Origin: Aequorivita aurantiaca
GTDB taxonomy: Bacteria; Bacteroidota; Bacteroidia; Flavobacteriales; Flavobacteriaceae
Assembly: GCF_030410135.1 (NCBI RefSeq)
Contig: NZ_JAUGQQ010000002.1
Coordinates: forward strand, 434,001 to 498,000
DNA length: 64,000 nucleotides
Reading direction: 5' to 3'
Shown: positions 4,740-42,196 of the stretch, in pieces
Position numbering within the stretch: position 1 is the stretch's first letter
How the letters are laid out: each line of letters opens with the position of its first letter
The notes under the pieces: generated by a model
Seen by the model: only the letters and a program-made list of their open reading frames with translations
Databases searched by the model: none
What the model was told of the DNA's origin: nothing
Program-made: the position numbers and the translations under genes

Positions 4740-4774
4740 GAAGCACGAAGACAGAAGACGGAAGTGGAACATTT
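4740..4774 (+). repeat. Degenerate heptanucleotide array upstream of rlmH
   Basis: Five consecutive 7-base units (GAAGCAC, GAAGACA, GAAGACG, GAAGTGG, AACATTT) lie directly against the -7 promoter element of rlmH. The same GAAGACN unit occurs in frame inside mcmA at 9703-9730. Confidence 0.6.
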
Positions 4775-4782
4775 TATCTTTG
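4775..4782 (+). promoter_or_regulatory. Bacteroidota -7 promoter element of rlmH
   Basis: TATCTTTG matches the Bacteroidota -7 consensus TAnnTTTG exactly and sits 25 bases before the rlmH ATG. A clear TTG -33 element is not visible; the heptad array occupies that position. Confidence 0.65.
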
Positions 4783-4807
4783 TATTTTTAATGCTGAAAA
4801 AGTAGAA

Positions 4808-5281
4808 ATGAAAATAACACTGCTCACCATTGGCAAGACCGATAACACCGAACTGCAAAGCTTGATGGACGATTATACGAAGCGGTTGGGGTATTATATT
4901 TCCTTTGAAATGGAAGTTATTCCCGATGTGAAGAATGCAAAAAACCTATCGGAAGCACTTCAAAAACAAGCCGAAGGTGAAGAAATATTAAAGCGAACCA
5001 CAATGGCCGATGTTTTAGTATTGCTAGATGAAAAGGGAAAGACTTTTACTTCAGAAGGATTTTCGCAGTTCCTTCAGAAGAAGATGAATAGCGGGCTAAA
5101 GAACCTCATCTTCGTGATTGGTGGGCCTTATGGGTTTAGTGACGCCGTTTATTCGCGGGCAAATGGGAAGGTTTCGCTTTCATCAATGACCTTTTCGCAT
5201 CAAATGGTTCGGTTGTTTTTTATTGAGCAACTTTATCGGGGGTTTACTATTCTTCGGAATGAACCATACCATCATCGATAG
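4808..5281 (+). CDS. rlmH: 23S rRNA (pseudouridine-1915-N3)-methyltransferase RlmH
   Basis: RlmH uses S-adenosylmethionine to methylate pseudouridine 1915 of 23S rRNA in assembled 70S ribosomes. The 157-residue protein has the usual length and the SPOUT knot motifs FVIGGPYGF and, at the C-terminus, HQMVRLFFIEQLYRGF followed by NEPYHHR. The start codon follows a TATCTTTG promoter element by 25 bases. It is transcribed away from nadC and converges on the DUF6122 gene. Confidence 0.97.
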   Translation: MKITLLTIGKTDNTELQSLMDDYTKRLGYYISFEMEVIPDVKNAKNLSEALQKQAEGEEILKRTTMADVLVLLDEKGKTFTSEGFSQFLQKKMNSGLKNLIFVIGGPYGFSDAVYSRANGKVSLSSMTFSHQMVRLFFIEQLYRGFTILRNEPYHHR

Positions 5282-5326
5282 TTAGATTATTGGATTGTTG
5301 GATTGTGGGATTTTTAGATGGCGAAT

Positions 5327-5632
5327 TTACCATTGACAATCTATGTAATCTGTTAGCATGTGGAATAGTAGGCCTACGGCAATTATTCGCGTTTTTCTGA
5401 AAAATAGCATTACTATGTAAACCGCCATTGCCCAATAGGTGTGCAGCGGGTGGAAGTTTATGCTACAACGGCCGGGATCAAAGATTGGGGTAGCGAGAAG
5501 ATGGTCCACATCTACCAGCATTGTGGCTAGCATAATTAACCACGCCTTTTTCCATTCCCTTCTAAAGAAAATATAGGCTATTAGGCCCGGAACCAGTAGG
5601 TGAAGCGTGTAATGTACCAGCGTTTGGAGCAT
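5327..5632 (-). CDS. DUF6122 family small membrane protein
   Basis: A 101-residue membrane protein with about four hydrophobic helices. Conserved polar residues sit within them: TLHLLVPGLIAYIFFRREWK, then MLVDVDHLLATPIFDP, HPLHTYWAMAVY and LLFHMLTDYIDC. The repeated His/Asp pairs in membrane segments resemble metal-dependent membrane hydrolases, but the catalytic role is inference. The family is widespread in flavobacteria and uncharacterised. The DinB gene precedes it by 11 bases on the same strand, so they are probably co-transcribed. Confidence 0.75.
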   Translation of the reverse strand: MLQTLVHYTLHLLVPGLIAYIFFRREWKKAWLIMLATMLVDVDHLLATPIFDPGRCSINFHPLHTYWAMAVYIVMLFFRKTRIIAVGLLFHMLTDYIDCQW

Positions 5633-5643
5633 TGGGAAATGTT

Positions 5644-6102
5644 TTAAACCATCTTCGCCAGTAGCACAATCTGCCCTAAGTGATAGGCGTCATGCTGGAT
5701 AATGCCATGAATATGCTGATAGTAGGTTAATTTATTGACCGAATATTCCTTAACAAAATCTGCTTCATTAAAAGTATTTAGGAAATAGAGCCATTCCTTT
5801 TGGGTGGTTTCCAAGGCTTCGAGGGTTTGTTGCCAAGCCTCCTTTGAGTCGTCTTCTATCCTTTTTATGTAATTGTTTGAAGGGGTTTGGAGCACCTCGC
5901 CTTGTACTCTTTTTAGTACGTTTTGGCGCCAGGCGATTAGGTGGTTTACTATTTCCCAAATGGTGTTGCCGTCGCTAATGGGGCGTTGATTGGCCTGTGT
6001 GGCGGTGATTCGGCTGAGGGTGTCTTGCAAGGTTACGTCCAGCCAAGGGTGGCCGTGATACAGGTCTGTGAAGAGCGTTTGAATTCTTTCTGTTTCGTTC
6101 AT
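5644..6102 (-). CDS. DinB family putative metal-dependent protein
   Basis: A 152-residue four-helix-bundle protein of the DinB/YfiT superfamily. Histidines expected to bind a divalent metal are visible in IWEIVNHLIAWRQNV (around residue 54) and in the C-terminal HDAYHLGQIVLL. Members include thiol-dependent transferases and many proteins of unknown function, so the substrate cannot be inferred. It precedes the DUF6122 gene with an 11-base gap. Confidence 0.85.
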   Translation of the reverse strand: MNETERIQTLFTDLYHGHPWLDVTLQDTLSRITATQANQRPISDGNTIWEIVNHLIAWRQNVLKRVQGEVLQTPSNNYIKRIEDDSKEAWQQTLEALETTQKEWLYFLNTFNEADFVKEYSVNKLTYYQHIHGIIQHDAYHLGQIVLLAKMV

Positions 6103-6409
6103 TGGGTTGGTTATTTTTTTATAAAGATAGGAAGATTTGAATTAGTTCTGTTTGCATTATAGCCTTCGGAAAAGTTGGATTTATGGTGCGCTTTTTAGAA
6201 AGCAGGATATTTGTAAGAAGTGCTTTTTTAGTTTTTGTTAAATTTTAATGGAAGCACCCGAGGACATCGGGGACATATCGGGGGGAAATACGGGGGAAAT
6301 AGGAAGGATATATGTAGGAAAATGTGAGAACTACGAAATTATTAGAAGTTTATTTGGCTTTGAAAAACTGTATGGGCACACATTGCAAAGATGCGTCTGC
6401 GGGGAATTC
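6103..6409. other. Intergenic stretch without a clear gene
   Basis: This 307-base gap lies between the DinB gene and the zinc-ribbon membrane protein gene. It contains a G-rich stretch with short direct repeats (about 6255-6300; ACATCGGGG, ACATATCGGGG, then AATACGGGGG). A 64-codon plus-strand frame covers it (6248-6442), but its product has no coding character and it runs into the neighbouring gene. I see no RNA gene or convincing terminator. Confidence 0.5.
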
Positions 6410-7222: not shown

Positions 7223-7287
7223 GAAGTTATGGTTGGATATTAATGTTTTAAATATTTACGGATTAAAGTTTCGATCAATTTATGAGT

Positions 7288-7324
7288 TGGAGGCACGAGC
7301 GGGACGCTCGCGCTAGCGTGGGAT
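7288..7324. repeat. REP-like palindromic element
   Basis: The stretch reads GGAGGCACGAGCGGGACGCT followed by CGCGCTAGCGTGGGATTT. It contains a hairpin GAGCG-GGA-CGCTC (7297-7309) and the palindrome CGCTAGCG (7311-7318). The form is that of a bacterial REP element. It lies in a gap that also holds an apparent gene remnant. Confidence 0.5.
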
Positions 7325-7328
7325 TTGA

Positions 7329-7502
7329 TTTACCGTAAAAAGTCTCAATTTTGATTTTAGTGTTAATTATTCTTATTTCATAATTGACGTCATAAAAAAA
7401 ATTGACCTTCAAGATTATCATTTAAGTGTTGAAAACTTGCAGAATATAATCTTTGATTTAAAAAAATATCCAGCAGATATTTATAATTTCTTAGATCTCT
7501 AA
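7329..7502 (+). pseudogene. Possible remnant of a gene 3' end (no start codon)
   Basis: A 57-codon open frame ends in TAA at 7500-7502 and has protein-like composition (FIIDVIKKIDLQDYHL, then IIFDLKKYPADIYNFLDL). It has no ATG, GTG or TTG start at its 5' end; the frame opens after a stop at 7326-7328 and abuts the REP-like element. I infer the tail of a gene whose body was lost, but a chance frame is possible in such AT-rich DNA. No family is recognised. Confidence 0.3.
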
Positions 7503-7551
7503 ATTTATAATACATTATGTAATATTATTTTACGACATCTTTATTTATACT

Positions 7552-9771
7552 TCACTCCACTCCCCCAATCAAAACCCCCAACATTTCAATAGCGGCATCA
7601 CTAATTCGGGTGCCTGGGCCATAAACCGCCACAGCGCCGGCATCAAAAAGATATTGGTAATCCTGCGCGGGTATTACACCGCCCACGATAACCATTATAT
7701 CTTCGCGACCATACTTTTTTAGGGCATCTATAACTTGTGGTACTAGGGTTTTGTGGCCTGCGGCAAGGGAGGAAACGCCGAGGATGTGTACATCGTTTTC
7801 CACCGCTTGTTTGGCGGCTTCGGCGGGAGTTTGGAAGAGGGGGCCAATGTCCACATCAAAACCTACGTCGGCATAGCCGGTGGCTACTACCTTGGCGCCG
7901 CGGTCGTGCCCGTCCTGCCCCATTTTGGCAATCATAATACGGGGGCGGCGGCCTTCCAGATCGGCAAACTGGTCCGCCATTTGGCGTGCCTTATCAAAAC
8001 TTGGGTCTTTTTTCATCTCTTTACTGTACACGCCGCTAAAGGAGCGTATTTGTGCTTTATATCTGCCGAATTCCTTTTCCATCGCGGAAGAAATTTCGCC
8101 AAGGGTTGCCCTGTGTCGGGCGGCTTCTACGGCTAAAGCTAACAAATTCTTATTCCCCTGAAAAGGGGAATCTGTTGAATTTACGTAGCTATGCGCACAT
8201 TTTGTAATATCTTCTAGCGCTTTCGCTACTTTTTCATTGTCGCGTTCTGCTTTTATTCGGTTTAATCTTTCAATTTGGGAGGTGCGTACTTTTTGGTTGT
8301 CCACATCCAGAATTTGCAGCGGATCTTCCTTCGCGAGGCGGTATTTGTTTACGCCCACAATAATATCCTGTCCGCTATCGATACGCGCCTGCTTGCGCGC
8401 GGAGGCTTCTTCAATGCGCAGTTTCGGAATACCTGCTTCAATGGCTTTGGTCATTCCGCCGAGTTCTTCCACTTCCTCGATTAGCGCCCAGGCCTTATTG
8501 GCGATTTCGTTTGTAAGGTTTTCCACATAATAACTGCCCGCCCAAGGATCTACCGTTCGAGTGATTTGGGTTTCGGTCTGTAGAAATATCTGTGTGTTCC
8601 GTGCAATACGTGCGGAGAAATCTGTTGGCAACGCAATGGCTTCATCCAAAGCATTCGTGTGCAAGGATTGTGTTCCCCCGAAAACTGCCGCAGCGGCTTC
8701 AATGGCGGTTCGCGCCACATTGTTAAACGGGTCCTGCTCGGTAAGGCTCCAACCGCTGGTTTGGCAATGGGTGCGCAACGCCAATGATTTTTCATCTTTT
8801 GGGTTGAATTGTTTTACAATTTTTGCCCACAGCATTCGGGCGGCACGCATTTTGGCGATTTCCATAAAATGGTTCATCCCGATTGCCCAGAAAAATGACA
8901 ATCGAGGCGCGAAAGTGTCAATATCCATTCCCGCTTTTATTCCGGTGCGAATGTATTCCAAACCGTCAGCCAAAGTGTAGGCCAGTTCAATATCGGCCGT
9001 GCCTCCCGCTTCCTGCATATGGTAACCGGAGATAGAAATGCTGTTAAATTTGGGCATATTTTTGGAAGTATATTCAAAAATATCACTCACAATTTTCATC
9101 GATTCCTTGGGCGGATAGATATAAGTATTCCGCACCATAAATTCCTTTAGGATATCATTTTGAATGGTTCCCGATAAATCTTTTAAGGCCACGCCCTGCT
9201 CTTCCGCTGCTACAATATAAAATGCCATAATGGGAAGCACGGCGCCATTCATCGTCATGGAAACGCTCATTTCATTCAACGGAATTTGATCGAAAAGAAT
9301 TTTCATATCCTCCACGCTGTCAATCGCTACACCGGCCTTCCCAACATCGCCCTCTACTCTTTCGTGATCACTGTCATATCCGCGATGGGTCGCTAAATCG
9401 AAAGCTACTGAAAGTCCTTTTTGCCCCGCGGCGAGATTTCTTCTGTAGAAAGCGTTACTGTCCTCTGCCGTGGAAAATCCTGCGTATTGGCGAATGGTCC
9501 ACGGCCGGCGGACGTACATTGTGGAATACGGGCCGCGAAGATGGGGCGCGATTCCTGCTACGAAATTTAAATGATGAAGGTGCTCGATATCCTCCGAAGT
9601 ATATAGCTTTTTAATTTCGATTTCTTCGGCAGTTTGGAAAGTTGACGGTTGATTGCTGATAGCTGATGACTGCCCCTCGACTACGCTCGGTGTAACATTT
9701 TGGTCTTCCGTCTTCGGTCTTCCTTCTTCCAACCTTTTTAAACTAATATGTTGCAAATCTTTTCTACTCAT
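7552..9771 (-). CDS. mcmA: Methylmalonyl-CoA mutase, large (B12-binding) subunit
   Basis: The large subunit carries the TIM barrel and the adenosylcobalamin domain that interconvert methylmalonyl-CoA and succinyl-CoA. The substrate-binding region ([20 protein letters not shown]) and the C-terminal cobalamin motif [10 protein letters not shown] (D-x-H-x-x-G), followed by SSLAAGH and VGGVIP, are intact. I prefer the Met at 9771 (MSRKDLQHI), giving 739 residues and an 8-base overlap with mcmB; a longer frame starts at 9792. Residues of about 25-50 are encoded by a heptad array, a REP core (PSVVEG) and a second heptad array. A further short insertion near DSPFQG is encoded by a TTCCCCTTTTCAGGGGAA palindrome. 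Both sit where extra residues should be tolerated, so the enzyme is probably active. Confidence 0.95.
8154..8171 (-). repeat. Palindrome within mcmA coding sequence
   Basis: TTCCCC-TGAAAA-GGGGAA, a perfect 6-bp inverted repeat, encodes the residues DSPFQGN in a segment just before the conserved [19 protein letters not shown]. It resembles the CCCC/GGGG hairpins found between genes elsewhere in the window. Confidence 0.45.
9631..9730 (-). repeat. Heptad arrays flanking a REP core, in frame inside mcmA
   Basis: Reading the minus strand, four GGAAGAC-type heptads and one more heptad (9730-9696) are followed by a REP-type core CACCGAGCGTAGTCGAGGGG (9692-9673) and then six heptads, CAGTCAT, CAGCTAT, CAGCAAT, CAACCGT, CAACTTT and CCAAACT (9672-9631). 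The whole insert stays in the mcmA frame. Confidence 0.65.
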
Positions 9772-12128: not shown

Positions 12129-12144
12129 AGTTATTGGTTTGCTA

Positions 12145-12152: not shown

Positions 12153-12154
12153 GG

Positions 12155-12189
12155 GAAAAGGGTTGCAGGTTTCAAGTTTCAAATTCAAA
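12155..12189 (-). repeat. Degenerate heptad array at the udk promoter
   Basis: On the minus strand the units are TTTGAAT, TTGAAAC, TTGAAAC, CTGCAAC and CCTTTTC, keeping a 7-base period up to the TACATTTG element. Confidence 0.5.
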
Positions 12190-12243: not shown

Positions 12244-12285
12244 AATAATCGTAAATCGGCAATCTTAAATCGTAAATCATTTATA
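12244..12285 (+). repeat. Degenerate heptad array at the wbqC promoter
   Basis: Units AATAATC, GTAAATC, GGCAATC, TTAAATC, GTAAATC and ATTTATA keep a 7-base period up to the wbqC -7 element at 12284-12291. Confidence 0.6.
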
Positions 12286-12980: not shown

Positions 12981-12981
12981 C

Positions 12982-17775: not shown

Positions 17776-17883
17776 CTGAAAATAGTATGTTTTCTAAAAG
17801 TAATTCCGAAGAGGTTTTGAACAATTATGATGCCGTGTTTCTGAAGTATTAGTATTCAGTTGCCGATGGCAGTGGTGATCTCG

Positions 17884-18002
17884 AGTGGTCAGTGGTCAGT
17901 GGTCAGTGGTCAGTGGTCAGTGGTCAGTGGTCAGTGATCAGTGGTCAGTGGTCAGTGATTTAAATAAATCTACAATTGTAAATTGTAAATCGTAAATCTA
18001 AA
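17884..18002. repeat. Seventeen-unit heptanucleotide array
   Basis: 119 bases divide exactly into 17 heptads. Seven AGTGGTC, then AGTGATC, two AGTGGTC and AGTGATT (17884-17960) are followed, in the same register, by TAAATAA, ATCTACA, ATTGTAA, ATTGTAA, ATCGTAA and ATCTAAA (17961-18002). The unit sequence changes but the period does not. The array extends into the last codons and stop of ribH. Confidence 0.8.
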
Positions 18003-18495
18003 ATCGTGAGTCTTTCCTCAGCTGCGCCATTTTAATCGCGGCAATTGCGGCTTCCGTTCCTTTGTTGCCGTGCTTTCCACCACTACGGTCGATGGCTTGT
18101 TGCATATTATTGTCGGTAAGTACGCAGAAAATTATGGGAATATTACCTGTTACATTTAAATCCTTTATGCCCTGCGCGACGGCTTCGCAAACGTAGTCGA
18201 AGTGTTTTGTTTCGCCTTGAATTACGCTACCTATTGCAATTACGGCATCAAGCATATCGTAACTTTCGACCATCCTTTTGCAGCCGTAAATAAGTTCAAA
18301 ACTGCCGGGAACGTTCCAACGGACGATATTTTCATTGATGGCGCCACAATCTTTCAATGCATCAAAAGCGCCTTGGAACATACCTTCAGTAATTTCGTGA
18401 TTCCACTCTGAAACAACAATCCCAAACCGAAAGTCCTTCGCGTTTGGGATTGTGTTTTTATCGTAAGCCGATAAATTTGTATTTGCTGTAGCCAT
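17998..18495 (-). CDS. ribH: 6,7-dimethyl-8-ribityllumazine synthase
   Basis: Condenses the ribityl-aminopyrimidine and dihydroxybutanone phosphate intermediates in riboflavin synthesis, usually as an icosahedral 60-mer. The 165-residue protein carries FGIVVSEWNHEITEGM, WNVPGSFELIYGCKRM, VIAIGSVIQGETKHFDYV (catalytic His region), IPIIFCVLTDNNMQQA and GNKGTEAAIAAIKM. Its ATG directly follows the TPR gene. The final codons and stop fall within the heptad array. Confidence 0.97.
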   Translation of the reverse strand: MATANTNLSAYDKNTIPNAKDFRFGIVVSEWNHEITEGMFQGAFDALKDCGAINENIVRWNVPGSFELIYGCKRMVESYDMLDAVIAIGSVIQGETKHFDYVCEAVAQGIKDLNVTGNIPIIFCVLTDNNMQQAIDRSGGKHGNKGTEAAIAAIKMAQLRKDSRF

Positions 18496-21840: not shown

Positions 21841-21866
21841 CACCGCTTAGCCTGCGCTCAGGGTGA
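21841..21866. repeat. REP-like imperfect palindrome
   Basis: CACCGCTTAGCCTGCGCTCA followed by GGGTGA begins with CACC and ends with GGGTG, with GCGCTC in the centre. It resembles REP elements of the CACCCTGAGC type. It lies between divergent ndk and the DHH gene. Confidence 0.4.
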
Positions 21867-21933
21867 AATAAAAGTTGAATGTTTATTATTTTAAGAAAAT
21901 TCTAGCTTCCAGCTCCCGGATTCAATATCAAAA

Positions 21934-28567: not shown

Positions 28568-28583
28568 AGAAAGGTTTATGATT

Positions 28584-28653
28584 TAGGCTGTAGGCTATAG
28601 GCTGTAGGCTGTAGGCATTAAGCTTTTGCTTTTTGCTCTTAGGCTGCAGGTTA
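28584..28653. repeat. Ten-unit heptad array after the FG-GAP gene
   Basis: Forward units: TAGGCTG, TAGGCTA, TAGGCTG, TAGGCTG, TAGGCAT, TAAGCTT, TTGCTTT, TTGCTCT, TAGGCTG, CAGGTTA. The last unit contains the stop codon of the FG-GAP gene (minus strand). A terminator follows at 28537. Confidence 0.7.
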
Positions 28654-31560: not shown

Positions 31561-31564
31561 ATTG

Positions 31565-33493
31565 TTATTCTTTAATTAGTTTTTTGATTACTGAATTTCC
31601 TTCAGAAGAAATTTTTACGAGATATACACCCTTTTCCAAAAAAGATATTTCCATCGTTATCCTTCCGTTTTGGGGAAGCATTTTTTCGGTACGTAATAAT
31701 TTCCCTTGAATGTCATACAGTGAAATAGTTGCTTCCGAAATCAATTTCGTTGCTTGAATGGTAAAGCTTCCAGAGGTTGGGTTAGGGAAAATGTGCAAAT
31801 CTTCAAAAATTAAGAAATTTACCGCAAGGGAAACCTCGTCATCCAAAAAGTCTGGAATTCCGTTGGCGTTTGTGTCATCATCTATGGACGTTCCGTTGTT
31901 GTTATAATCTTCATCGATTGTCAATGTGCCGTCGCCATCATCATCATTATCCAAATAGTTTTCAATGTTGTCACCATCAGTATCGATATAAATATAACCA
32001 GGTGCAATCCCAGCGCCTATTCCCGTGATTTCGTCAATTGTTTCAACTGTGTCGCCGTCGTCATCGGTGTCTAAATAATTTGGAATGCCATCGCCGTCGG
32101 TGTCATCGTCGTTTAGGTTGCCATTCCCGTTTATGTCTTCGTCTTCGTTTGCAATGCCATCGCCATCTGCATCGGGGGCAAGTTCATCTGTAGCAATTTC
32201 AAAGGAAGTGACTACAGAGCAGCCAGTATTCCAAGTTTCAATTCGAACGTAAATAGTTTGAGGGTTCGAAGTGTTTATAAATGTTGCCGTATTTATAAGT
32301 CTATTAGCATCGATTTCCGCATCATTTTCAGTCATATAAAAGTTCACTTCATAATCTGATGGATTCAAACCTGCCAACATAACGGGAATATTCACCGTAA
32401 GATCAAAAACTGCAAGGCCATCGCCATCACCTTCGTTTATAAAAAGGTTATTGGGTTGGGTTATTGGAGGGATTTCGTTTACTATTAATTCGAGTTCAAC
32501 TATTGTGTAACATTCTGTTGAGGAATTTTCAACCCGCACATAAACAGTTTGTGAATATGGAACAATATTTTCATAAGGACTAGAAAGTGGGAATGTTCCA
32601 TTTTGTGCATCAATTTCAGTTTCATAATAGGTAATACTAATATTTTGCTGACCATTGCCAATTTCGGTATCCTTTAATGTTAGATCGAAAGCGGCGGACC
32701 CATCATTGTCGTCATCACAAACTATAAGTGGAGTTGGATTGGCGTTTGGGCTTGGATTTGGCAAAACACTTAATGTAAGGGCGACAATATCATAACACCC
32801 TTCAGCACTATTTGGGTTTGGCGGTATAGTTCCATTGGTATTGCTTACCAGTAAAATATAAATAGTCTGCGGATTAGTTGAATTAAGAAAGTTAGATGGA
32901 TTAGAGATTGCCTGCGAAAAATCAGGGTTCGTAGCTGCCAAATCTCCAGCAAAGATTGCATCTTCGAAAGTCTCATAATAATAAAGATCAAAACCCAAAG
33001 GATCTAAACTTCCAAGAACTTCTGCAGCTACAGTTGTAAGGTCAAAAAATGCAAAGCCATCATTGTTGTCATCACAAATCTGCAATGGTTCTGGCACATT
33101 CCCAAAGGGAGAAAAGCGTACCTCTAATGCAAAAGGGTATATGTTTATTTCATTACTGGTGCCGCTTTCTACTCTTGCCCATACTCCACCTGTGCCATAT
33201 TGTGGATCGATAGGATTAATAATTGGAGAATCATAATATGCCATATCGTTAATATATAAATTAGGTAATGACAATGTCGCGTTCTCTGCATTTACAAGGG
33301 TTCCGTGGTACGTTACTGTTAAGATTGGATCGCATTGTGTAATAACTTCGTTTTGTAACGTAAGATCAAAGGGAAAAAAACCGTCGTTATTATCATCACA
33401 CGCCACTAAATTAGCAACAGGTGGGTTAACAATAATCTGTGCATTTGCGTTAATAGAAAACACAATGACTAATATGAAAACTAATTTTTTCAT
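31565..33493 (-). CDS. Secreted protein with calcium-binding repeats and type IX sorting tail
   Basis: A 642-residue exported protein. I start it at MKKLVFILV (33493) with a standard signal peptide ending SINANAQ; the frame could begin 11 codons earlier. The body has repeated units around [47 protein letters not shown] and [13 protein letters not shown], roughly 110 residues apart, each like a surface-protein domain. They are followed by thrombospondin-3-like acidic repeats and a type IX tail ([14 protein letters not shown]). Binding role is inferred. First gene of the pair with the FG-GAP gene. Confidence 0.88.
31570..32113 (-). repeat. Near-identical 3' segment shared by two adjacent genes (copy 2)
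   Basis: The partner of 28656-29197, with the same DxDGD repeats and sorting tail. Confidence 0.8.
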
Positions 33494-33616
33494 CAATAAA
33501 AATTTTCCCGCAAGATATAAAAACAATATAGACCGTTAAGAAAATTTTAACTTTCCGCTCTCAAATTTGACTGCCATAAGTTTTTTCAGTATTCTTGTTT
33601 TCAAAAATTTGTATAA

Positions 33617-34297
33617 ATGAAGTTTAAATTTTCCTCCGTTCTTTTAATTTCTCTTGCATTACTATTATTTCAAAGTTGCGAAAAACTGGAAATAACAAAC
33701 AACGAAAGGCTCTTAGTTAAGGGAAAAATTGTAGACCAAAACGGAAATGCCTTAGCCAATATTCCCATTAAAACCGAAGCCGTTAACCGCATTTTGGCCA
33801 AAACTACAACGGATACGAATGGAAATTTTGCATTCACCTCCCTTAACGCAAACACCGACCCATTGCACGTTTTGGTGAATATTGCGGCCAACTTCGAACT
33901 CGAAAACGAAAACCCCGATTACGCTAGCAAAGTATTTTCTTCCGAAGGTGGCAATGAACAATTATTGCTGGATTTGGGAACAATAACTCTTAGTAATTTA
34001 GGGTCATTTTCAATGTTATTAAAAAACCTTCACGGTGATAATAATACTGTGGAATATACACTTTCATACACTTCAAAAGTTTGTCGCCTTCCCTTAGAAT
34101 TCAATAATAACGATGCTTGCGAATTTGACCAATCTACAGAGGGATTTTTGGATGCTACTTCACAAAACCGAACGTTGGGTGAGGAAAGTGTCATTGGCAC
34201 AGTTGCCATTTTTGAGTACAGACTCAATAACGAGCCCACACAAACTATTGAAATTCCAGTAACAAACCCACCAGTCAATTATGTTTTTGAATATTAG
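33617..34297 (+). CDS. Lipoprotein with carboxypeptidase-regulatory-like domain
   Basis: A 226-residue lipoprotein (lipobox FQSC, Cys about residue 21). Residues 34-80 form a transthyretin-like domain (VKGKIVDQNGNALANIPIKT and TTTDTNGNFAFTSLNAN), seen in many Bacteroidota surface lipoproteins. The remaining part is beta-rich and unassigned. It overlaps the outer-membrane gene by 17 bases, so the pair is co-translated and may form one envelope complex. Confidence 0.8.
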   Translation: MKFKFSSVLLISLALLLFQSCEKLEITNNERLLVKGKIVDQNGNALANIPIKTEAVNRILAKTTTDTNGNFAFTSLNANTDPLHVLVNIAANFELENENPDYASKVFSSEGGNEQLLLDLGTITLSNLGSFSMLLKNLHGDNNTVEYTLSYTSKVCRLPLEFNNNDACEFDQSTEGFLDATSQNRTLGEESVIGTVAIFEYRLNNEPTQTIEIPVTNPPVNYVFEY

Positions 34298-34931
34298 ATT
34301 ACTTTTTATTTCCCTGCTCATATCTGCAGCTTCATTCGCGCAACAACCGGAAACAGAAACTCAAACCGAAACAACTCAATTTCCACCCAATGCTGGTACT
34401 AAAGTGGGTAGCATTACGGTTGGCGCTTATTTGCCTATAGCTTTCGGAGATAACTTTGTGAACGAAGGAATGGATCTAAAAATGGGGGCACAAGTACAAT
34501 TAAAACTGAATGTTTTAGGCGACTTTTATATAGGCCCAGCTTTGAGTTTCTTTTTTGCCGATGTTACCAATCGTGACTTGGTTGGCAGTTATGATGAAAT
34601 GTCCAATTTGGTCCTCGGGGGCATGGTAGGTTATGAAAAAGAAGTGGAACGTTTTGATCTTTCAATCGGTTTGGGTGTGGGTTATTCAGGTTATTTCAAC
34701 GAAGGCCTTGGCGATAGTTTTGAAGACAATGCCACAGCGCTTTGGCTTCGGCCCGAGGTTAGTTACAAATTGGCAAATTATGTTTCACTTTATGTCGCTC
34801 CAGAATTTCGCCACGATTTTATGAATATTGATGTGCCTTCAGAATTAAAGGACACTTTTGGAGGGGTGAACTACTTCAATTTTGGTTTTGGTCTTCGCAT
34901 CAATTTCGGTACCGGATATAAATTTCAGTAG
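34281..34931 (+). CDS. Outer-membrane beta-barrel protein
   Basis: A 216-residue exported protein: signal peptide ending AASFAQ, a Gln/Glu/Thr-rich linker (QPETETQTETTQF) and about eight amphipathic beta strands ending in YFNFGFGLRINFGTGYKFQ. The alternating pattern and C-terminal aromatic residue fit a small porin-like barrel. Substrate unknown. It overlaps the preceding lipoprotein gene by 17 bases. Confidence 0.8.
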   Translation: MFLNIRLLFISLLISAASFAQQPETETQTETTQFPPNAGTKVGSITVGAYLPIAFGDNFVNEGMDLKMGAQVQLKLNVLGDFYIGPALSFFFADVTNRDLVGSYDEMSNLVLGGMVGYEKEVERFDLSIGLGVGYSGYFNEGLGDSFEDNATALWLRPEVSYKLANYVSLYVAPEFRHDFMNIDVPSELKDTFGGVNYFNFGFGLRINFGTGYKFQ

Positions 34932-34934
34932 TGT

Positions 34935-34942
34935 ATCTTTGC
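34935..34942 (+). promoter_or_regulatory. -7-like element before the TrmH-family gene
   Basis: TATCTTTG lies just after the stop of the barrel gene and 4 bases before the methyltransferase ATG. Position uncertain by one base. The short distance makes it a weaker case than the similar elements at rlmH and pheT. Confidence 0.35.
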
Positions 34943-34945
34943 GCA

Positions 34946-35755
34946 ATGCAGAAAACCATCACCAGCCTTCAAAATCCGCTGATTAAGCAGCTTGTTTTAC
35001 TTCAGGAAAAATCGCGCGAACGCCGAAAGACAAACCTTTTTGTAATTGAAGGTCTGCGTGAAATTTCATTGGCATTGAAAGGAAGTTATCTTTTGAAAAC
35101 CGTGCTTGTCTGTTCCGATATTATTTCCAAAGAAGATATTTTTGCGCTGAAAGAATCCGCAAACAATGATGCAGAATTCATTGAAATCACTTCAGAAATT
35201 TATGAAAAACTTGCTTACAGAAGTTCAACGGAAGGCGTATTAGCAATTGCACATTCCAAGACTTTGGAACTTACCCACCTACAACTGGCATCCAAAAACC
35301 CTTTAATCCTCATCGCTGAAGCTCCCGAAAAACCCGGAAATATAGGCGCCCTGCTCCGCACCGCTGATGCTGCGAAGGTAGATGCCGTGATAATCGCCAC
35401 CCCAAAGACAGATATGTTTAACCCAAACATCATTCGCAGTAGCGTGGGATGTTTGTTTACAAACCAGATTGCAACGGGAAGTACTTCGGAAATCATTGCG
35501 TTTCTAAAGGAAAATAACATCAACATTTACTGCGCTGAATTGCGAGCTTCAGTTCAATACGATACAATGAATTTCAAAAAACCAACCGCTATAGTTGTGG
35601 GAACGGAAGCCACGGGTCTTTCGGAGGAATGGCTTAAAAACAGCACTCAAAATATTATCATCCCAATGCAGGGCGAAATAGATAGTATGAATGTTTCCGT
35701 GGCCGCGGGAATCCTTATATTTGAGGCGAAGCGACAACGGGGCTTTAGGCTTTAG
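34946..35755 (+). CDS. TrmH/SpoU family RNA 2'-O-methyltransferase
   Basis: A 269-residue SPOUT methyltransferase. The N-terminal substrate-binding domain (LQNPLIKQLVLLQEKSRERR, FVIEGLREI) is followed by the SpoU motifs IAEAPEKPGNIGALLRTADA, VGTEATGLSEEW and IPMQGEIDSMNVSVAAGIL. It methylates a ribose in rRNA or tRNA with SAM; the target is not evident. I start at ATG 34946 (MQKTITSLQNP); a GTG start five codons earlier is possible. The last codons and stop (GFRL, TAG) are made by the first units of a heptad array. Confidence 0.9.
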   Translation: MQKTITSLQNPLIKQLVLLQEKSRERRKTNLFVIEGLREISLALKGSYLLKTVLVCSDIISKEDIFALKESANNDAEFIEITSEIYEKLAYRSSTEGVLAIAHSKTLELTHLQLASKNPLILIAEAPEKPGNIGALLRTADAAKVDAVIIATPKTDMFNPNIIRSSVGCLFTNQIATGSTSEIIAFLKENNINIYCAELRASVQYDTMNFKKPTAIVVGTEATGLSEEWLKNSTQNIIIPMQGEIDSMNVSVAAGILIFEAKRQRGFRL

Positions 35756-35810
35756 GCTTTAGGCTTTAGGCAAAAATATTACTTACAACATTAAACCTCA
35801 AACTCTTGAA
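35741..35810. repeat. Ten-unit heptad array between the methyltransferase and M48 genes
   Basis: Four GGCTTTA units, then GGCAAAA, ATATTAC, TTACAAC, ATTAAAC, CTCAAAC and TCTTGAA keep one 7-base register. The array forms the 3' end of the upstream gene and contains the TTG start of the M48 gene. Confidence 0.7.
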
Positions 35811-37038
35811 TCCACAAATTCTCTTTTACGTTATAATAGGAGTTTTAGTTTTAAGCTTCCTAATTGATCAAATCCTTGATTTTCTCAACGCAAAACACTT
35901 CAACGATCCGCTTCCGGCAGAATTACAGGATGTTTTTGATGCAGAAGAATACAAAAAATCGCAGCGCTACAAAAAAGAGCGCTACAAATTCGGCATCCTA
36001 ACATCTACCATTTCCCTTATCGCCACTCTCCTATTCTTCTTTTTGGATGGCTTTGCTTATGTAGATTCTTTGGCTCGTGCCGTTTCAAACAATGAAATAA
36101 TCATCGCCTTAATTTTCTTCGGAATTATTATGATGGCAAGTGATATTCTTTCCACACCTTTTAGCTATTACAGCACTTTCGTAATCGAGGAAAAATACGG
36201 TTTCAATAAAACTACGCGTAAAACTTTTTTCCTCGATAAACTAAAAGGTTGGCTAATGGGCGCAATTATCGGCGGCATCCTTTTGGGCGCTATAATTTGG
36301 TTTTATCAAAGCACCGGCAATAATTTTTGGCTGTATGCGTGGGGAATTATTACCGTTTTCACTGTTTTAATGAATCTGTTCTATGCACGTTTTATCGTTC
36401 CACTATTCAACAAACAGACCCCACTGGAAGAAGGTGCGCTCCGTTCAGAAATTGAAAATTACGCCTCAAAAGTGGGGTTTACGCTCGATAAAATTTTTGT
36501 AATTGACGGCAGCAAACGAAGCACAAAAGCAAATGCCTATTTCTCTGGTTTCGGAAGTGAAAAACGGGTAACCCTTTTTGATACTTTGATAAAAGATTTA
36601 AATGAAGAGGAAATCGTGGCCGTCCTCGCCCACGAGGTTGGGCATTATAAACGCAACCATATTATTATAAACCTGTTTGTTGCAATCATAACCACTGGGT
36701 TTACGCTTTGGTTGTTGTCATTGTTTATAGGGAATCCATTGCTATCGGAAGCATTGAATGTTTCAAAACCCTCATTTCATATTGGGTTGATAGCTTTTGG
36801 CGTGCTTTACAGTCCAATTTCAGGAATCACAAGTTTACTGATGAATTATTTAAGCAGAAAATTTGAATACCAGGCAGACGATTATGCAAAGAATACTTTC
36901 GCCGCACCGCCACTTATTTCGGGGTTGAAAAAACTTTCAAAAAACAGTTTGAGCAACCTTACGCCGCACCCACTTTATGTTTTTGCGCATTATTCGCATC
37001 CCACGCTTTTACAGCGTTTTCGCAATCTGAAAAAATGA
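35806..37038 (+). CDS. M48 family metallopeptidase (Ste24-like)
   Basis: A 410-residue integral membrane zinc protease, similar to CAAX prenyl protease 1. About seven hydrophobic segments surround the zinc site VLAHEVGHYKRNHI, with the third ligand in FEYQADDYAKN. In bacteria such enzymes act in membrane protein quality control. The start is TTG at 35806 (then NPQILFYVIIG); no ATG fits upstream of the first helix. It follows a heptad array. Confidence 0.92.
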   Translation: MNPQILFYVIIGVLVLSFLIDQILDFLNAKHFNDPLPAELQDVFDAEEYKKSQRYKKERYKFGILTSTISLIATLLFFFLDGFAYVDSLARAVSNNEIIIALIFFGIIMMASDILSTPFSYYSTFVIEEKYGFNKTTRKTFFLDKLKGWLMGAIIGGILLGAIIWFYQSTGNNFWLYAWGIITVFTVLMNLFYARFIVPLFNKQTPLEEGALRSEIENYASKVGFTLDKIFVIDGSKRSTKANAYFSGFGSEKRVTLFDTLIKDLNEEEIVAVLAHEVGHYKRNHIIINLFVAIITTGFTLWLLSLFIGNPLLSEALNVSKPSFHIGLIAFGVLYSPISGITSLLMNYLSRKFEYQADDYAKNTFAAPPLISGLKKLSKNSLSNLTPHPLYVFAHYSHPTLLQRFRNLKK

Positions 37039-37098
37039 TTTTTATCATTTGAATATATTATTGTAAAAAGCTACTTTGTGACCTCCTAAAAATTTCAA

Positions 37099-39534
37099 AT
37101 GAAAACAAGACTACTATTACTTTCAACCATACTTTTTTCTTTTTCAATCAATGCTCAAATAGATTTTGGGCCGCACATTATTGTTGACGATACGGGCGGG
37201 ACAAACAACCCACAATCCGTTATTGCCGCAGATCTTGACAATGATGGAGATTTGGATATGATATCTTCATCCCTGGGCGATTCTAAAATAGCTTGGTATA
37301 AAAATACTAATGGCAGTTTTGGAACACAGCAAATAATAACGGAAAATGCCAATCGAGCCTATCAAGTAATAGCCTTGGATATAGACAACGATGGCGATGA
37401 AGATTTAGTGAACGCCACGTATTATGGTATTTTTTGGTACGAAAATACAGATGGTCAAGGAAATTTTGCAACCGCCCAACCCGTTAGTCCAGCAGTTGTT
37501 AAAGCTAGGGACATAGACGCAAAAGATATGGACGGCGATGGGGATTTGGATATAATTTCAAGTTCAGGTTCCACCAATTCCATATCCTGGTTTGAAAATA
37601 TGGATGGGCAAGGAACGTTTGCCGAAGAACATTTTATCACAACTGATACAGCATTATACCAAAAAATAGACGTAGCAGATCTTGATGGCGATGGTGATAT
37701 GGATATTTTGGCCTCAGATTATACAAACGACGATGTGGGATGGTTCAAGAATATTAATGGCCAAGGAGATTTTGGGCCCAAGCAGGTTATTACTTCAGAT
37801 GTTCAGCGCCCTCAAGGTATTTCCGCCGCAGATCTCGATGGCGATGGCGATTTGGACGTAATTTCTACTTCCCAATTGTTCGACCACAAATTGGTTTGGT
37901 TCGAAAATTTAAACGGGCAGGGCAATTTTGGACCACAGCGTTTCGTGAATCCTGATGTGTATGGTCAATTTTTGGTTACAACGGCAGATTTGGATAATGA
38001 TGGAGATTTGGACGTGATTTCTGGTGGAAGTGCCCAGGGAATAATTTATTGGTATAAAAATGTTGACGGACTTGGTAATTTTGGACCAAAGCAACAAATA
38101 ACTGATCAAATAGAATATTTAAGTGACCTAAACTTGGCAGATTTGGACAACGACGGCGACATGGATTTAATGTCGGCCTCTGCTACAGACGATAAAATTG
38201 CATATTACCTAAATACAGACGGGCAAGGCAATTTCGGATCCCAACAAATAGTTGTGGAAATTAACGGCACCAATAGACCCTATACAGTAATGTCAATAGA
38301 TTTAGATGGTGACGGCGATAAGGACGTGCTATCCGCATCAAATGGGGATGACAAAATTGCTTGGCTCGAAAATCTTGACGGCTTAGGAAACTTTTCAGAA
38401 CCCAAAACCATCTCATTACTATTAGACTATCCAAGCTCTATTGATGCGGCAGACATTGATGGCGATGGTGATATGGATGTGGTTTCAGAATCTTTCTATG
38501 ATAAGACAGTTGCCTGGTTTGAAAATATAGACGGGCAAGGCACCTCTTTTACGCCACATATTTTTAGCCCACTTAACTCAATCCCTTACGTAACCTATTC
38601 GATGGATGTTGATAATGATGGCGATATGGATATAGTTTCTGGCGGTAATTTCGGCTTAATATGGTATGAAAACACGAATGGCCAAGGAGTATTTGGTTCA
38701 AGCCGAGTTATCAATAGCGCACCCCAATGTATTGAATCTGTTAGAGCCGCAGATCTGGATAACGATGGACTTTTAGATCTGGTTTCTGCAGACTGGTGTA
38801 ATGATGTTCTTTTTTGGCATAAAAACAACGGCGGAGGTAACTTTGGACCACAACAAATAATTTCGACAGAAATAAGTAGTACCTATTCTGTAATCCTTGC
38901 AGATTTGGATAATGACGGCGATCAGGATGTTTTGGCTTCTTCATTCGGAGATTCTTCCGCAGTTTGGTTCGAAAATATGGATGGTCAAGGTACTTTTAGT
39001 TCTATAAGAGGTATAAACAATAATGCAGAAGGAGCCTACGAGGTATATGCTAAAGATTTAGACGCGGATGGCGATACGGATGTATTAACTGCTTCCTTCC
39101 AAGCCAATACGGTCTATTGGCATGAAAATTTAGGTAATGGTAATTTTGGAGCCGAACAAGCAATCTCTTCTGAAGCTAAAAGCACTACCTGTGTATTTGC
39201 CGATGACTATAACAACGATGGAAAAATGGATGTGCTAGCAACGTCATATTTGTTGGACGAAATAATCTGGTTCGAAAACAAAGGCCCATTAAGCATCGAA
39301 GAAAACACAACAAACCTCTTCAGCATCTACCCAAACCCAACAACCGGATTGGTAAATATACAATCCGTATTGCCTATTTCTGAAATTACCGTTTACAATA
39401 ATCTTGGGCAACTGCTTTTCACTTTGGAAGAAAAAAACCAAATAGATATTTCAACTCTTCATAGAGGAATCTATTTTGTGAAAATCAAAAGCGAAACAGG
39501 ACAGATCGAAACCAAGAAAGTTGTAAAAAAATAA
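37099..39534 (+). CDS. Secreted FG-GAP/VCBS repeat protein with type IX sorting tail
   Basis: An 811-residue exported protein: signal peptide ending FSINAQ, then about fourteen repeats of 48-50 residues. Each has a calcium loop DLDxDGDxD followed by a strand with WYKNxxGxGNFG, for example DLDNDGDLDMISSS and DIDGDGDMDVVSES. The repeats should fold as one or two seven-bladed propellers. The C-terminus is a type IX tail (SIYPNPTTGLVNIQ to KKVVKK). It is followed 9 bases later by a shorter paralogue. Confidence 0.92.
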   Translation: MKTRLLLLSTILFSFSINAQIDFGPHIIVDDTGGTNNPQSVIAADLDNDGDLDMISSSLGDSKIAWYKNTNGSFGTQQIITENANRAYQVIALDIDNDGDEDLVNATYYGIFWYENTDGQGNFATAQPVSPAVVKARDIDAKDMDGDGDLDIISSSGSTNSISWFENMDGQGTFAEEHFITTDTALYQKIDVADLDGDGDMDILASDYTNDDVGWFKNINGQGDFGPKQVITSDVQRPQGISAADLDGDGDLDVISTSQLFDHKLVWFENLNGQGNFGPQRFVNPDVYGQFLVTTADLDNDGDLDVISGGSAQGIIYWYKNVDGLGNFGPKQQITDQIEYLSDLNLADLDNDGDMDLMSASATDDKIAYYLNTDGQGNFGSQQIVVEINGTNRPYTVMSIDLDGDGDKDVLSASNGDDKIAWLENLDGLGNFSEPKTISLLLDYPSSIDAADIDGDGDMDVVSESFYDKTVAWFENIDGQGTSFTPHIFSPLNSIPYVTYSMDVDNDGDMDIVSGGNFGLIWYENTNGQGVFGSSRVINSAPQCIESVRAADLDNDGLLDLVSADWCNDVLFWHKNNGGGNFGPQQIISTEISSTYSVILADLDNDGDQDVLASSFGDSSAVWFENMDGQGTFSSIRGINNNAEGAYEVYAKDLDADGDTDVLTASFQANTVYWHENLGNGNFGAEQAISSEAKSTTCVFADDYNNDGKMDVLATSYLLDEIIWFENKGPLSIEENTTNLFSIYPNPTTGLVNIQSVLPISEITVYNNLGQLLFTLEEKNQIDISTLHRGIYFVKIKSETGQIETKKVVKK

Positions 39535-39543
39535 ATTTTTTGT

Positions 39544-40917
39544 ATGAAAAAAATATTATTTCTCCTCAGTCTTATTTCATTTAACACCTACGCCCAAATA
39601 GATTTTGAAGCGCATATAATTGTAGATTCAAATCCCGTGGTAGATGGTCCATTTGCATTAGCTTCTGGAGATATTGATGGAGATGGTGACAAAGATCTTT
39701 TCGCTACCTCTACAAAAGGTGATAAAGTAGTATGGTTTAAAAATGTGGACGGCCAAGGAAATTTTTCTGAACCAATTGTTATCACCTCTACAATGGATTA
39801 CCCTATGGATCTCGCTATTGCAGATATAGATAACGATGGTGACTTAGACCTAGTTGCCATATCAAATGGCGATCATAAAATTGCTTGGTTTGAAAATACA
39901 GATGGTTTAGGAAACTTTGGTCCACTAACATTAGTAGCCACATTTACATATGTGCAGACAATAGAAGCAAAGGATATAGATGCCGATGGTGATTTAGACT
40001 TAATTGCTGGGGGAAATGATAAAATCAGTTGGTTTGAGAACTTAAATGGATTAGGCACATTTGGTCCAGAGAAAATAATTAATACCGACATTCTATCCAC
40101 TGAGAGCGTAGAAGTTGACGATATTGATGGAGATGGAGATATGGATGTAATTATGGCGGACTGGCCTAGAGACATTGTGGCTTGGTATGAAAACCTAGAT
40201 GGACTGGGTAATTTTGGTCCAGAGCAAATAATATCCCTAGCAGCAGATAATCCTAATACGGTTGTTTTAACAGATATTGATAATGATGGCGATTTAGATG
40301 TTGTATCAACAAATGAAGGTGGGCAAATAGCCTGGTTTAAAAACACAGATGGATTGGGCAATTTTAGTACACCAATCATAATTGCTGAAAATATAGAGCT
40401 CGCATACAAAATGCACGCTGCTGATCTTGATGGCGATCGCGACAAAGATATTCTAGCATCTTTGTATTTTGATGGTGACCTTATATGGTTGGAAAATGAC
40501 GGAAGCGGAAATTTTAGTGAACCGCAATTTTTTTATTCAGATGAATTTTCTCCGATAGCCATAATTGCTGATGATTTTAATGGAGACAACAAAATGGATA
40601 TAGCGACTGGTATTTATTTAAATATCGTTTTTGAAGATGATCAAATAATCTGGTTCGAAAACAAAGGCCCATTAAGCATCGAAGAAAACACAACAAACTA
40701 TTTCAGCATCTATCCAAACCCAACAAATGGAGTGCTAAACATAAAATCCGCTACACCGCTTTCCGAAATAACCGTTTATAACAATCATGGCCAATTGCTC
40801 TTTGCTTCAGAAAAGAACAATCAGGTAGATATTTCAACTTTAAGCCAAGGAATCTATTTCGTAAAAATTAAAGATGAAAACGGACAAACCGAAACTAAAA
40901 AAGTAATAAAAAATTAA
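39544..40917 (+). CDS. Shorter paralogue: secreted FG-GAP protein with type IX tail
   Basis: A 457-residue paralogue of the preceding gene: signal peptide ending FNTYAQ, about seven repeats (DIDGDGDKDLFATS, DIDNDGDLDLVAIS, DLDGDRDKDILASL) and a type IX tail (SIYPNPTNGVLNIKSATP). The segment before the tail is almost identical in DNA to that of the longer gene (see findings). Seven repeats would make one propeller, against two in the larger protein; this is inference. Confidence 0.9.
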   Translation: MKKILFLLSLISFNTYAQIDFEAHIIVDSNPVVDGPFALASGDIDGDGDKDLFATSTKGDKVVWFKNVDGQGNFSEPIVITSTMDYPMDLAIADIDNDGDLDLVAISNGDHKIAWFENTDGLGNFGPLTLVATFTYVQTIEAKDIDADGDLDLIAGGNDKISWFENLNGLGTFGPEKIINTDILSTESVEVDDIDGDGDMDVIMADWPRDIVAWYENLDGLGNFGPEQIISLAADNPNTVVLTDIDNDGDLDVVSTNEGGQIAWFKNTDGLGNFSTPIIIAENIELAYKMHAADLDGDRDKDILASLYFDGDLIWLENDGSGNFSEPQFFYSDEFSPIAIIADDFNGDNKMDIATGIYLNIVFEDDQIIWFENKGPLSIEENTTNYFSIYPNPTNGVLNIKSATPLSEITVYNNHGQLLFASEKNNQVDISTLSQGIYFVKIKDENGQTETKKVIKN

Positions 40918-40952
40918 ATTGAAGTACCTTTCAATGTAAATCAAACATTACA

Positions 40953-42134
40953 TTGAAAACCATAACCCGCACCGTTTGGATACTTTCGCTCATCAGCCTG
41001 TTTACAGATATGGCCAGCGAAATGCTCTACCCAATAATGCCTATTTATTTAAAAAGTATTGGCTTTTCAATTTTACTGATCGGCGTCTTGGAAGGGGTGG
41101 TGGAAGCCGTAGCCGGATTGAGCAAAGGATATTTCGGGCAACTTTCCGATAGTAAAGCCAAACGAGCTCCTTTTGTACAGTTGGGTTATTCCCTCAGCGC
41201 CCTTTCAAAACCGATGATGGCTTTTTTTGTTTTTCCACTTTGGATATTTTTTGTGAGAACCACGGATAGACTCGGAAAAGGAATCCGAACCGGAGCCAGA
41301 GATGCGATGCTTTCCGCTGAAACTACAAAGGAAAATAAGGGGAAAGTTTTCGGCTTCCACCGTTCGTTGGATACTTTTGGCGCGGTTCTCGGTCCTGCCC
41401 TGGCGCTACTTTATCTATATTTTTATCCCGAAGATTATATTAATCTCTTTTACATTGCCTTCATTCCGGGGGTTTTGGCAATTGTAGCTTCCTTTCTTTT
41501 AAAGGACAAGAAAAACGAAAGTTCTTCCGAAATTGAAAATATAAATTTCTTCTCCTTCATAAAATATTGGAAACAAAGTTCTTCGGAATACCGAAAAGTC
41601 ATCATTGGCCTGCTCCTCTTCGCCCTCTTCAACAGCAGTGACGTATTTTTATTACTGAAAGCGAAAGAAGCCGGACTTGACGATACTTGGGTAATCGGCA
41701 TTTATATTTTCTACAATTTAATTTATGCCCTCACCGCATACCCACTGGGAATTTTCGCAGATAAAATTGGTCTCAAAAAAATGTTTGTCTTTGGTTTGAT
41801 TATTTTCTGTTTGGTTTACTTCGGAATGGGTTTAACAACAAATCTTTATTTAATGTTCGTGCTTTTTTTCGGCTATGGGATTTATGCCGCAGCAACCGAA
41901 GGAATTTCCAAAGCTTGGATTACCAACATTTCCAAAGCGAAAAATACTGCAACCGCCGTGGGCACGTATGCCGCCTTCCAAAGTATTGCAGCGATGATTG
42001 CGAGCATAATGGCAGGACTTTTATGGCTTTACTTCGGGGCGAATGTTGCGTTTTTGGTTACTGCTCTTGCAACCATTGGGGTAATTGTATATTTTCTAGC
42101 CTTAAATTTTTCCTCCGAAGATTCGAAATTTTGA
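40953..42134 (+). CDS. MFS family transporter
   Basis: A 393-residue transporter with 12 predicted membrane segments. The motif-A-like loop GYFGQLSDSKAKRAP lies between helices 2 and 3, and DRLGKGIRTGARDAM lies after helix 4. The latter is typical of a Bacteroidota MFS subgroup of unknown substrate. The start is TTG at 40953 (then KTITRTVWILSL); the first ATG in frame would cut into helix 1. Single gene between the FG-GAP pair and pheT. Confidence 0.85.
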   Translation: MKTITRTVWILSLISLFTDMASEMLYPIMPIYLKSIGFSILLIGVLEGVVEAVAGLSKGYFGQLSDSKAKRAPFVQLGYSLSALSKPMMAFFVFPLWIFFVRTTDRLGKGIRTGARDAMLSAETTKENKGKVFGFHRSLDTFGAVLGPALALLYLYFYPEDYINLFYIAFIPGVLAIVASFLLKDKKNESSSEIENINFFSFIKYWKQSSSEYRKVIIGLLLFALFNSSDVFLLLKAKEAGLDDTWVIGIYIFYNLIYALTAYPLGIFADKIGLKKMFVFGLIIFCLVYFGMGLTTNLYLMFVLFFGYGIYAAATEGISKAWITNISKAKNTATAVGTYAAFQSIAAMIASIMAGLLWLYFGANVAFLVTALATIGVIVYFLALNFSSEDSKF

Positions 42135-42196
42135 ACTTTTAGCTTTTAACTTGTCACTAAAACTTTCAACTTTCAACTTCAAACTTTCAACTAAAT
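42134..42196. repeat. Nine-unit heptad array at the pheT promoter
   Basis: Units AACTTTT, AGCTTTT, AACTTGT, CACTAAA, ACTTTCA, ACTTTCA, ACTTCAA, ACTTTCA and ACTAAAT run from the MFS stop to 2 bases before the TATCTTTG element. Confidence 0.7.

Follow-up and report, generated by a model that had tools for sequence, protein, structure and literature searches.

The DNA analyzed here, hereafter the window, is a 64,000-nucleotide stretch of the 3.09-Mb genome of Aequorivita aurantiaca (positions 434,001 to 498,000 of contig NZ_JAUGQQ010000002.1; G000:C22:434001-498000), in which short arrays keep a 7-bp spacing while the repeated unit itself changes. The main array stands between ribH and mutL, beside a degenerate copy of a dispersed sequence that we call the CAGT-anchor element. 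The features are as follows, each with its strand where one was assigned and, for the scored arrays, the largest number of bases in a 21-bp window that exactly match the base 7 positions on:

4740..4774, no strand assigned: weak heptad track GAAGACN, flanked by two genes whose domains are QRPTase (nadC-like) and SPOUT_MTase (rlmH-like), 15/21
9631..9730, minus strand: heptad track AAGACNG, in frame in the N-terminal linker of methylmalonyl-CoA mutase (mcmA), 18/21
12155..12189, no strand assigned: weak heptad track with TTGAAAC words on the minus strand, 16/21
12244..12285, no strand assigned: weak heptad track reading ATTTACG, ATTTAAG, ATTGCCG, ATTTACG on the minus strand, 16/21
17844..17873, plus strand: degenerate copy of the dispersed CAGT-anchor element AGTNTTCAGTNTTCAGTNGCAGTNNGCAGT, adjoining the main array
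17884..17957, plus strand: main heptad array CAGTGGT (= AGTGGTC), 10.6 units with 97% match by Tandem Repeats Finder, 21/21
17965..18007, no strand assigned: second, degenerate heptad track TAAATCG/TAAATTG, extending to the ribH stop
28575..28653, no strand assigned: heptad array TAGGCTG with a degenerate right end, 19/21
35741..35776, plus strand: heptad array GGCTTTA, 4.4 units, at the stop of an RlmB/TrmH-like methyltransferase gene (an assignment below the NCBIfam cut-off), 21/21
42130..42196, plus strand: heptad array ACTTTCA, lying upstream of pheT and directly past the stop codon that ends a transporter-like gene, 17/21

We compared each base with the base p positions on, counting exact matches in 21-bp windows, and set the counts against 60 random sequences with matching trinucleotide composition. 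At 17 or more matches of 21, the window holds five period-7 arrays, where the random sequences average 0.08 and never exceed 1, together with one array each at periods 8 and 11 and none at periods 5, 6, 9, and 10. Of the nine arrays named in the original prediction, five are strong and lie beyond random expectation (21/21 at 17884 and at 35741, 19/21 at 28584, 18/21 at 9631, and 17/21 at 42134), three are weak, and the one at 21900 is unsupported, with a best lag-7 score of 13/21. Among the weak ones, those at 12155 and 12244 reach a score expected 0.22 times per 64 kb, and that at 4740 is near chance when taken alone, since a random 64 kb should hold 1.18 such scores. Once the cut-off is loosened, period 6 outnumbers period 7 in the window (30 versus 13 at 14/21, and 14 versus 11 at 15/21). 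The 400 kb earlier on the same contig (C22:1-400000) hold six arrays at 17/21 versus five in the 64 kb of the window, which is therefore an enriched patch. The original prediction relied on the register being kept through a change of unit, and this is informative only where the units are related.

The excess of period 7 extends to the genus. Our sample comprised 1.664 Mb from six Aequorivita genomes, taken partly at round coordinates and partly from the mutL neighbourhood, and included one 100-kb block of genome G002 picked where AGTGGTC-like matches had already been seen. It holds 111 arrays of period 7, 20 each of periods 6 and 8, and 7 of period 9, while period 5 is not represented; period 7 leads in every one of the six genomes. 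The original prediction is supported in this excess, in the many different units, and in some length differences of exactly 7 between related arrays. Array density is uneven, with 49 arrays in 380 kb of G016 and 11 in 464 kb of the window's genome, 5 of these in the window. In a set of 48 loci, the 9 Aequorivita loci yielded 9 period-7 arrays and the other 39 yielded 3. Across the wider family, 142 of 199 Flavobacteriaceae genomes contain ATT repeated five times at 7-bp steps, with a very uneven distribution.

These counts bear on the idea that AT-rich spacer DNA throws up such arrays by chance. It can draw on the array at 4740, which is near the random level, on that at 21900, which is below it, and on a looser measure (21 or more matches in a 35-bp spacer window) by which control families give 12 lag-7 windows in 29 kb; by the same measure this genome has 22 such windows in 36 kb, G002 has 57 in 62 kb, and G016 has 73 in 42 kb. 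Five arrays at 17/21 where 0.08 are expected have already refuted chance for the strong arrays, and 400 kb from four genomes of other families contained no period-7 array at 17/21, which makes this explanation exceedingly improbable.

To locate the arrays we used crude open reading frame (ORF) calls, and dropping 5 of the 111 at stretch edges left 106 to classify. Of these, 95 are noncoding, although about 86% of the assigned bases in the array-holding loci are coding. Tandem spacers hold 67 arrays in 77 kb (0.87 per kb), convergent spacers 17 in 18 kb (0.92 per kb), and divergent spacers 11 in 35 kb (0.31 per kb); the median distance is 44 bp to a flanking stop (n = 101) and 94 bp to a flanking start (n = 89), and array strand relative to gene direction (27 versus 39) gives no clear bias. 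A regulatory role, in which each heptad would bind a subunit of a nucleic-acid-binding protein (cold-shock or similar) in the mRNA leader, has been proposed for the TAACTGA repeats of Beggiatoaceae. A loosely specific binder would suit a fixed period with a free unit, and CspB is reported to bind heptamers (PMC4679880). The poverty of divergent spacers, the closeness of arrays to stops rather than starts, and their being missing or different at orthologous sites all argue against such a role here, which we judge quite improbable. Hairpin partners of the arrays were also considered and rejected, as 534 inverted 6-mer matches versus 433 and 436 in controls were too weak a signal.

The variation within and between arrays points to slippage. 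Across the 46 arrays that span 42 bp or more (37 of them variable), the summed Hamming distance between neighbouring units was 150, versus a mean of 252 and a minimum of 217 in 500 permutations that shuffled units within each array. Neighbouring units therefore resemble each other and change gradually, which fits slippage plus mutation. Furthermore, related arrays may differ by single units: duplicated segments of G016 carry 5 versus 4 CCATTAG units, two arrays show single-unit differences between loci L085 and L086, one of TTAATTG and one of GCACCCA (7-bp indels), and a third is equal in both, and G022 and G011 differ by one CAGTGTT within nearly identical flanks. At L246 in this genome (G000:C3:48300-49500), ATTAACC heptads are followed about 80 bp on by ATTCACCC octads. 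The view that a fixed period with a changing unit is not ordinary slippage is not supported, given the gradual shift between neighbours and the presence of 7-bp and 8-bp arrays in one spacer.

The L246 spacer, about 340 bp long with ends set by eye, begins beside one stop codon and consists mostly of the heptad array and then the octad array. Heptad-bearing segments of 100-300 bp are duplicated, in tandem or dispersed, in G016 (L168:1305-2312) and G002 (L050:2480-2804 and L138:12137-12273), with array lengths that differ in several copies.

At orthologous sites, the heptads differ between species or are lacking in some. The main array lies between ribH and conserved DNA preceding a small ORF beside mutL (by eye), with Pfam domains DMRL_synthase (ribH) and MutL at the flanks; Tandem Repeats Finder gives the second track as TAAATCG in 6.1 units with 76% match, and a single merged lag-7 run (17879-18006) spans both tracks. 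We compared this site in 19 relatives, 18 of which yielded the spacer, and the heptads differ by species (GAGTCGT in G004, GTGTTCA and AACTTTG in G001, GTCGGGT in G015), with no clear heptads in some, e.g., L007 and L009. Likewise, the site of the 28575 array has TAGTCGG heptads in L088 and little or none in L084, L132, and L145, and the spacer orthologous to that of the 42130 array carries CACCCAG heptads in L085 (218 bp) and L086 (225 bp). In place of the 35741 array, a CAGT-anchor track occurs in 5 of the 9 relatives read (L085, L086, L088, L145, and L149) and is absent from L083, L084, L087, and L141. The weak track at 4740 has similar heptads at the orthologous site (G016, L144) and none in L140 or L148, and that at 12155 has variant heptads in L133, L144, and L148 (by eye). 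The ATTTACG and ATTGCCG pair of the 12244 track also occurs elsewhere in the window's genome (G000:C1:17495).

The mcmA array lies in frame, as the original prediction had it: read by eye, the gene has a likely start near 9771, which places the array, flanked by conserved ends, in the N-terminal linker, with the MM_CoA_mutase domain running from ORF residue 53. Relatives have similar heptads (L133), different heptads (L148), or none clear (L140 and L144) at this site. A dispersed sequence resembling CCTTCGACTGCGCTCAGGGTGACA has one degenerate copy within the track (by eye). It appears in the window at about 9679-9703 and 21843-21868 (by eye) and also in L006, L020, and L022, with 18 copies at up to 5 mismatches in 1.664 Mb versus 0 for permuted letters. 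Of note, four proteins with type IX secretion sorting tails are encoded at 28651-40917, around the arrays at 28584 and 35741.

Our reading, to which we assign a probability of roughly two in three, is that the arrays are heptanucleotide tandem repeats of slipped-strand origin and turnover, and that the array at 17884 probably grew from the adjacent CAGT-anchor element. It draws on direct observations, namely, the period-7 excess, the drift between neighbours, some single-unit length differences, the mostly noncoding sites, and the unit differences at orthologous sites. Slipped-strand duplication would add whole units in DNA that is free to vary, i.e., gene spacers and one protein linker, by a step that would usually be 7 nt and at times 6 or 8. 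A mutated unit copied to its neighbour would let the sequence drift along the array while the spacing stays. At the enzyme level, the cause would be slippage during DNA synthesis, and 7-nt loops would escape mismatch repair. The CAGTGGT array at 17884 would probably have grown beside and out of the degenerate element copy.

Several points weigh against this reading. Slippage leaves the dominance of 7 unaccounted for, and we infer the seeding by the CAGT-anchor element from adjacency in four cases. With the arrays masked, lag 7 (z 5.1) falls behind lag 6 (z 5.4) and lag 3 (z 6.8) in the spacers of this genome, while it leads in those of G001, G002, G015, and G016, and by the looser measure lag 7 leads in the control families too. 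Only 8 of the 37 variable arrays are individually below 0.05 in the neighbour test, and octad arrays show no neighbour likeness (114 versus 109 shuffled in 16 arrays of G061; 55 versus 51 in 4 of G159). Array lengths were compared between species or paralogues, with one genome per species, so that slippage is gauged indirectly. Two of the seven indels in or near the L085-L086 arrays are 7 bp long, and the others, all from one badly aligned spacer, measure 23, 8, 31, 2, and 33 bp; 7 bp is not favoured as an indel length over the whole L085-L086 alignment, and the L083-L084 indels near arrays measure 3, 18, and 1 bp. Finally, units recur in different genomes about twice as often as by chance (22 pairs versus 11.1, with 1.3% of null draws reaching 22), which counts against slippage because plain slippage predicts no such sharing.

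This sharing would suit a spread of arrays by copying between loci, as a minimal mobile element, rather than their being made anew by slippage. AGTGGTC-like matches at many nonorthologous places across the genus, the heptad-bearing segments duplicated in G002 and G016, and the 197 core matches of the CAGT-anchor element described below also speak for copying. Against it, the sharing is modest, and 20 element copies compared with their flanks have nothing in common past about 31 bp, so we hold copying to be rather unlikely. Slippage is the most likely maker of the arrays, which are a new, rich case of a known kind.

Octads are themselves abundant in some sister genera (L216-L245; G061, G159, G131, G133, G193, and G090), which are 8-bp-rich with few octads as their building set; in G061, ATT every 8 bp has 228 + 212 matches versus 59 + 29 for every 7. 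The notion that spacing is a lineage "ruler" is at most a lead: ATT every 8 exceeds ATT every 7 in G131, G159, and G090, but the full period spectra are mixed, and those of G061, G193, and G159 are biased, as the stretches were chosen near matches. A general grammar of heptads with a fixed anchor and a free linker was also rejected, since contiguous variable phases exceed random at other periods too (141 versus 95 at period 7, 167 versus 129 at period 6, 32 versus 21 at period 8, and 22 versus 13 at period 9).

The CAGT-anchor element is about 31 bp long, with CAGT anchors spaced 7-7-6-7. At the mutL-ribH site of several species it reads as the words CAGTATT, CAGTTG, CAGTTGG, and CAGT, with an irregular 6-bp step, and a 24-bp seed from this site has 8 occurrences at up to 5 mismatches in 1.664 Mb, some of them the mutL-ribH site itself, versus 0.1 for permuted letters. 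The core pattern CAGTNTTCAGTNGCAGTNNGCAGT with at most one mismatch gives 107 forward and 90 reverse matches, 197 in all including overlapping ones within long arrays, in 24 of 28 Aequorivita genomes, and the reversed pattern gives 0 in all 28. When the anchors alone were fixed (at most one mismatch) over 343 spacings, CAGT gave 31 matches at 7-7-7 and 9 at 7-6-7; GACT, CATG, TGAC, CTGA, and the complements tested gave none at 7-6-7, and the matches listed for ATGC contain no figure for it. CAGT ranks 16th (12 arrays) in a coarse count of tetramer-anchored tracks, so the distinctive trait is the 7-6-7 spacing. In 20 copies taken with their flanks (10 of 25 matches in G001 and 10 of 25 in G012), conservation is limited to about 31 bp, with AGT six bases upstream, outside the search pattern, in all 20. 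The window copy has 3 mismatches to the 24-bp seed and 6 to a 30-bp template, a score unmatched in 20 random windows, and better copies occur at the orthologous mutL-ribH site of relatives.

As RNA, five element copies showed no fold better than shuffles (z from -1.19 to 0.77); with no such fold and nothing conserved past about 31 bp, the palindrome and terminal inverted repeats of repetitive extragenic palindromes or miniature inverted-repeat transposable elements are lacking in these copies. At up to 3 mismatches to the 30-bp template, 33 of 149 Flavobacteriaceae genomes contain the element, which covers 32 of 148 genera, with 0 for the control, and in a phylum sample it occurs in 8 of 148, i.e., 7 of the 15 Flavobacteriaceae members and 1 of the 133 others. 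It adjoins CAGT heptads at the window site, L034 (short), L133, and L266, and we therefore read it as a putative seed of the CAGT class of arrays.

The element is frequently found just past stop codons. The scanned loci contain 32 distinct copies with up to 2 mismatches, 31 of them with sufficient flank, and a same-strand frame 25 or more codons long ends no more than 26 bp upstream in 26 of these 31 (distances -3 to 14), versus 1212 of 4000 random, mostly coding positions (30%; binomial tail 1e-9, with some copies being orthologues and so not all independent). An opposite-strand frame ends on the other side in 8 of the 31. The window copy has no same-strand stop upstream, and neither do the copies at the mutL-ribH site of relatives. 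We also followed one orthologous gene end, matched in 28 of 28 genomes, 23 of which were read: 7 carry the full element (give or take one base), G011 has one heptad fewer, and the rest have part of it or none. Pairwise differences among six distinct full copies, chosen for completeness, which favours the anchors, amount to 20/375 in anchor and fixed linker bases, 58/90 in the free linker, and 310/465 in the next 31 bases. Neutral decay is hard to reconcile with linkers that are saturated beside anchors that differ by 5%, so that selection, or re-insertion from a pool that is itself kept constant, is needed. The original prediction had suggested a constraint on spacing; the arrays do not need one, and it is seen instead in the separate element beside some of them, with its anchors at 7-7-6-7.

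We tentatively suggest, at somewhat less than even odds, that the CAGT-anchor element represents an undescribed class of short post-stop sequences in Flavobacteriaceae, about 31 bp long, in sense orientation, with free linkers and no stable fold. Its anchors may be kept by purifying selection (putative protein binding at gene ends) or by recurrent re-insertion at stops, and it may seed some arrays by slippage. Literature searches, with most subscription papers outside their scope, returned no description of such a post-stop element. On the other strand TAACTGA reads CAGTTAT, a CAGT anchor plus three bases like the CAGTGGT of the window, a kinship that may connect heptads across Bacteroidota, cyanobacteria, and Beggiatoaceae.

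Heptanucleotides of the short tandemly repeated repetitive (STRR) type occur in cyanobacteria. In 250 kb of a plasmid of the cyanobacterium Trichormus, period 7 was the top period, with 7 arrays, one of them CAGT anchored by eye, a likeness in period to STRR sequences. A Calothrix STRR case is cited in PMC4692102. As cited in PMC4679880 and PMC4692102, Mrazek et al. 2007 found heptanucleotides to be the commonest of 5- to 11-nt repeats in most genomes and proposed polymerase slippage at about 7 nt. Our arrays resemble these long simple sequence repeats in their period-7 excess at the strict cut-off (weaker at looser ones), in their mostly noncoding location (95/106), and in whole-unit length changes in three paralogue or species cases, with L085-L086 and L083-L084 as counter-cases. 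They differ in that units drift within an array and differ between species at one site, and they make Aequorivita a further rich genus. The GGGNATC and GGGGA(C/T)T heptads of Xanthomonas and Nostoc, which vary extensively in length and sequence between close species (Rehm et al. 2015, PMC4692102), are described there as one G-rich unit type per organism, whereas here there are many units and few with GGG (GGGATTT in G016).

The original prediction knew of no flavobacterial equivalent. This is corrected by MacGregor 2015 (PMC4679880), which reports TAACTGA direct repeats in Beggiatoaceae, cyanobacteria, and five Bacteroidetes, and names Aequorivita sublithincola and Gramella forsetii as carrying TAACTGA repeats and "other heptamer direct repeats." Most TAACTGA repeats of the Maribeggiatoa genome lie, by the same account, just before start codons; the present arrays were not concentrated a few nucleotides upstream of starts, with their medians of 94 bp to starts and 44 bp to stops, and the CAGT elements lie mostly just past stop codons. 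Three TAACTGA in a row were found in none of the A. aurantiaca sequence and in 3 of 199 family genomes.

Together, these results make testable the old question of why bacterial repeats favour a step of 7 nt, for which Aequorivita offers many arrays at orthologous sites, adjacent 7-bp and 8-bp arrays, and sister genera in which 8-bp arrays abound. If the CAGT-anchor element is constrained, part of a large bacterial family would possess a signal at the 3' ends of genes, and part of the heptad arrays would have an origin other than random slippage.

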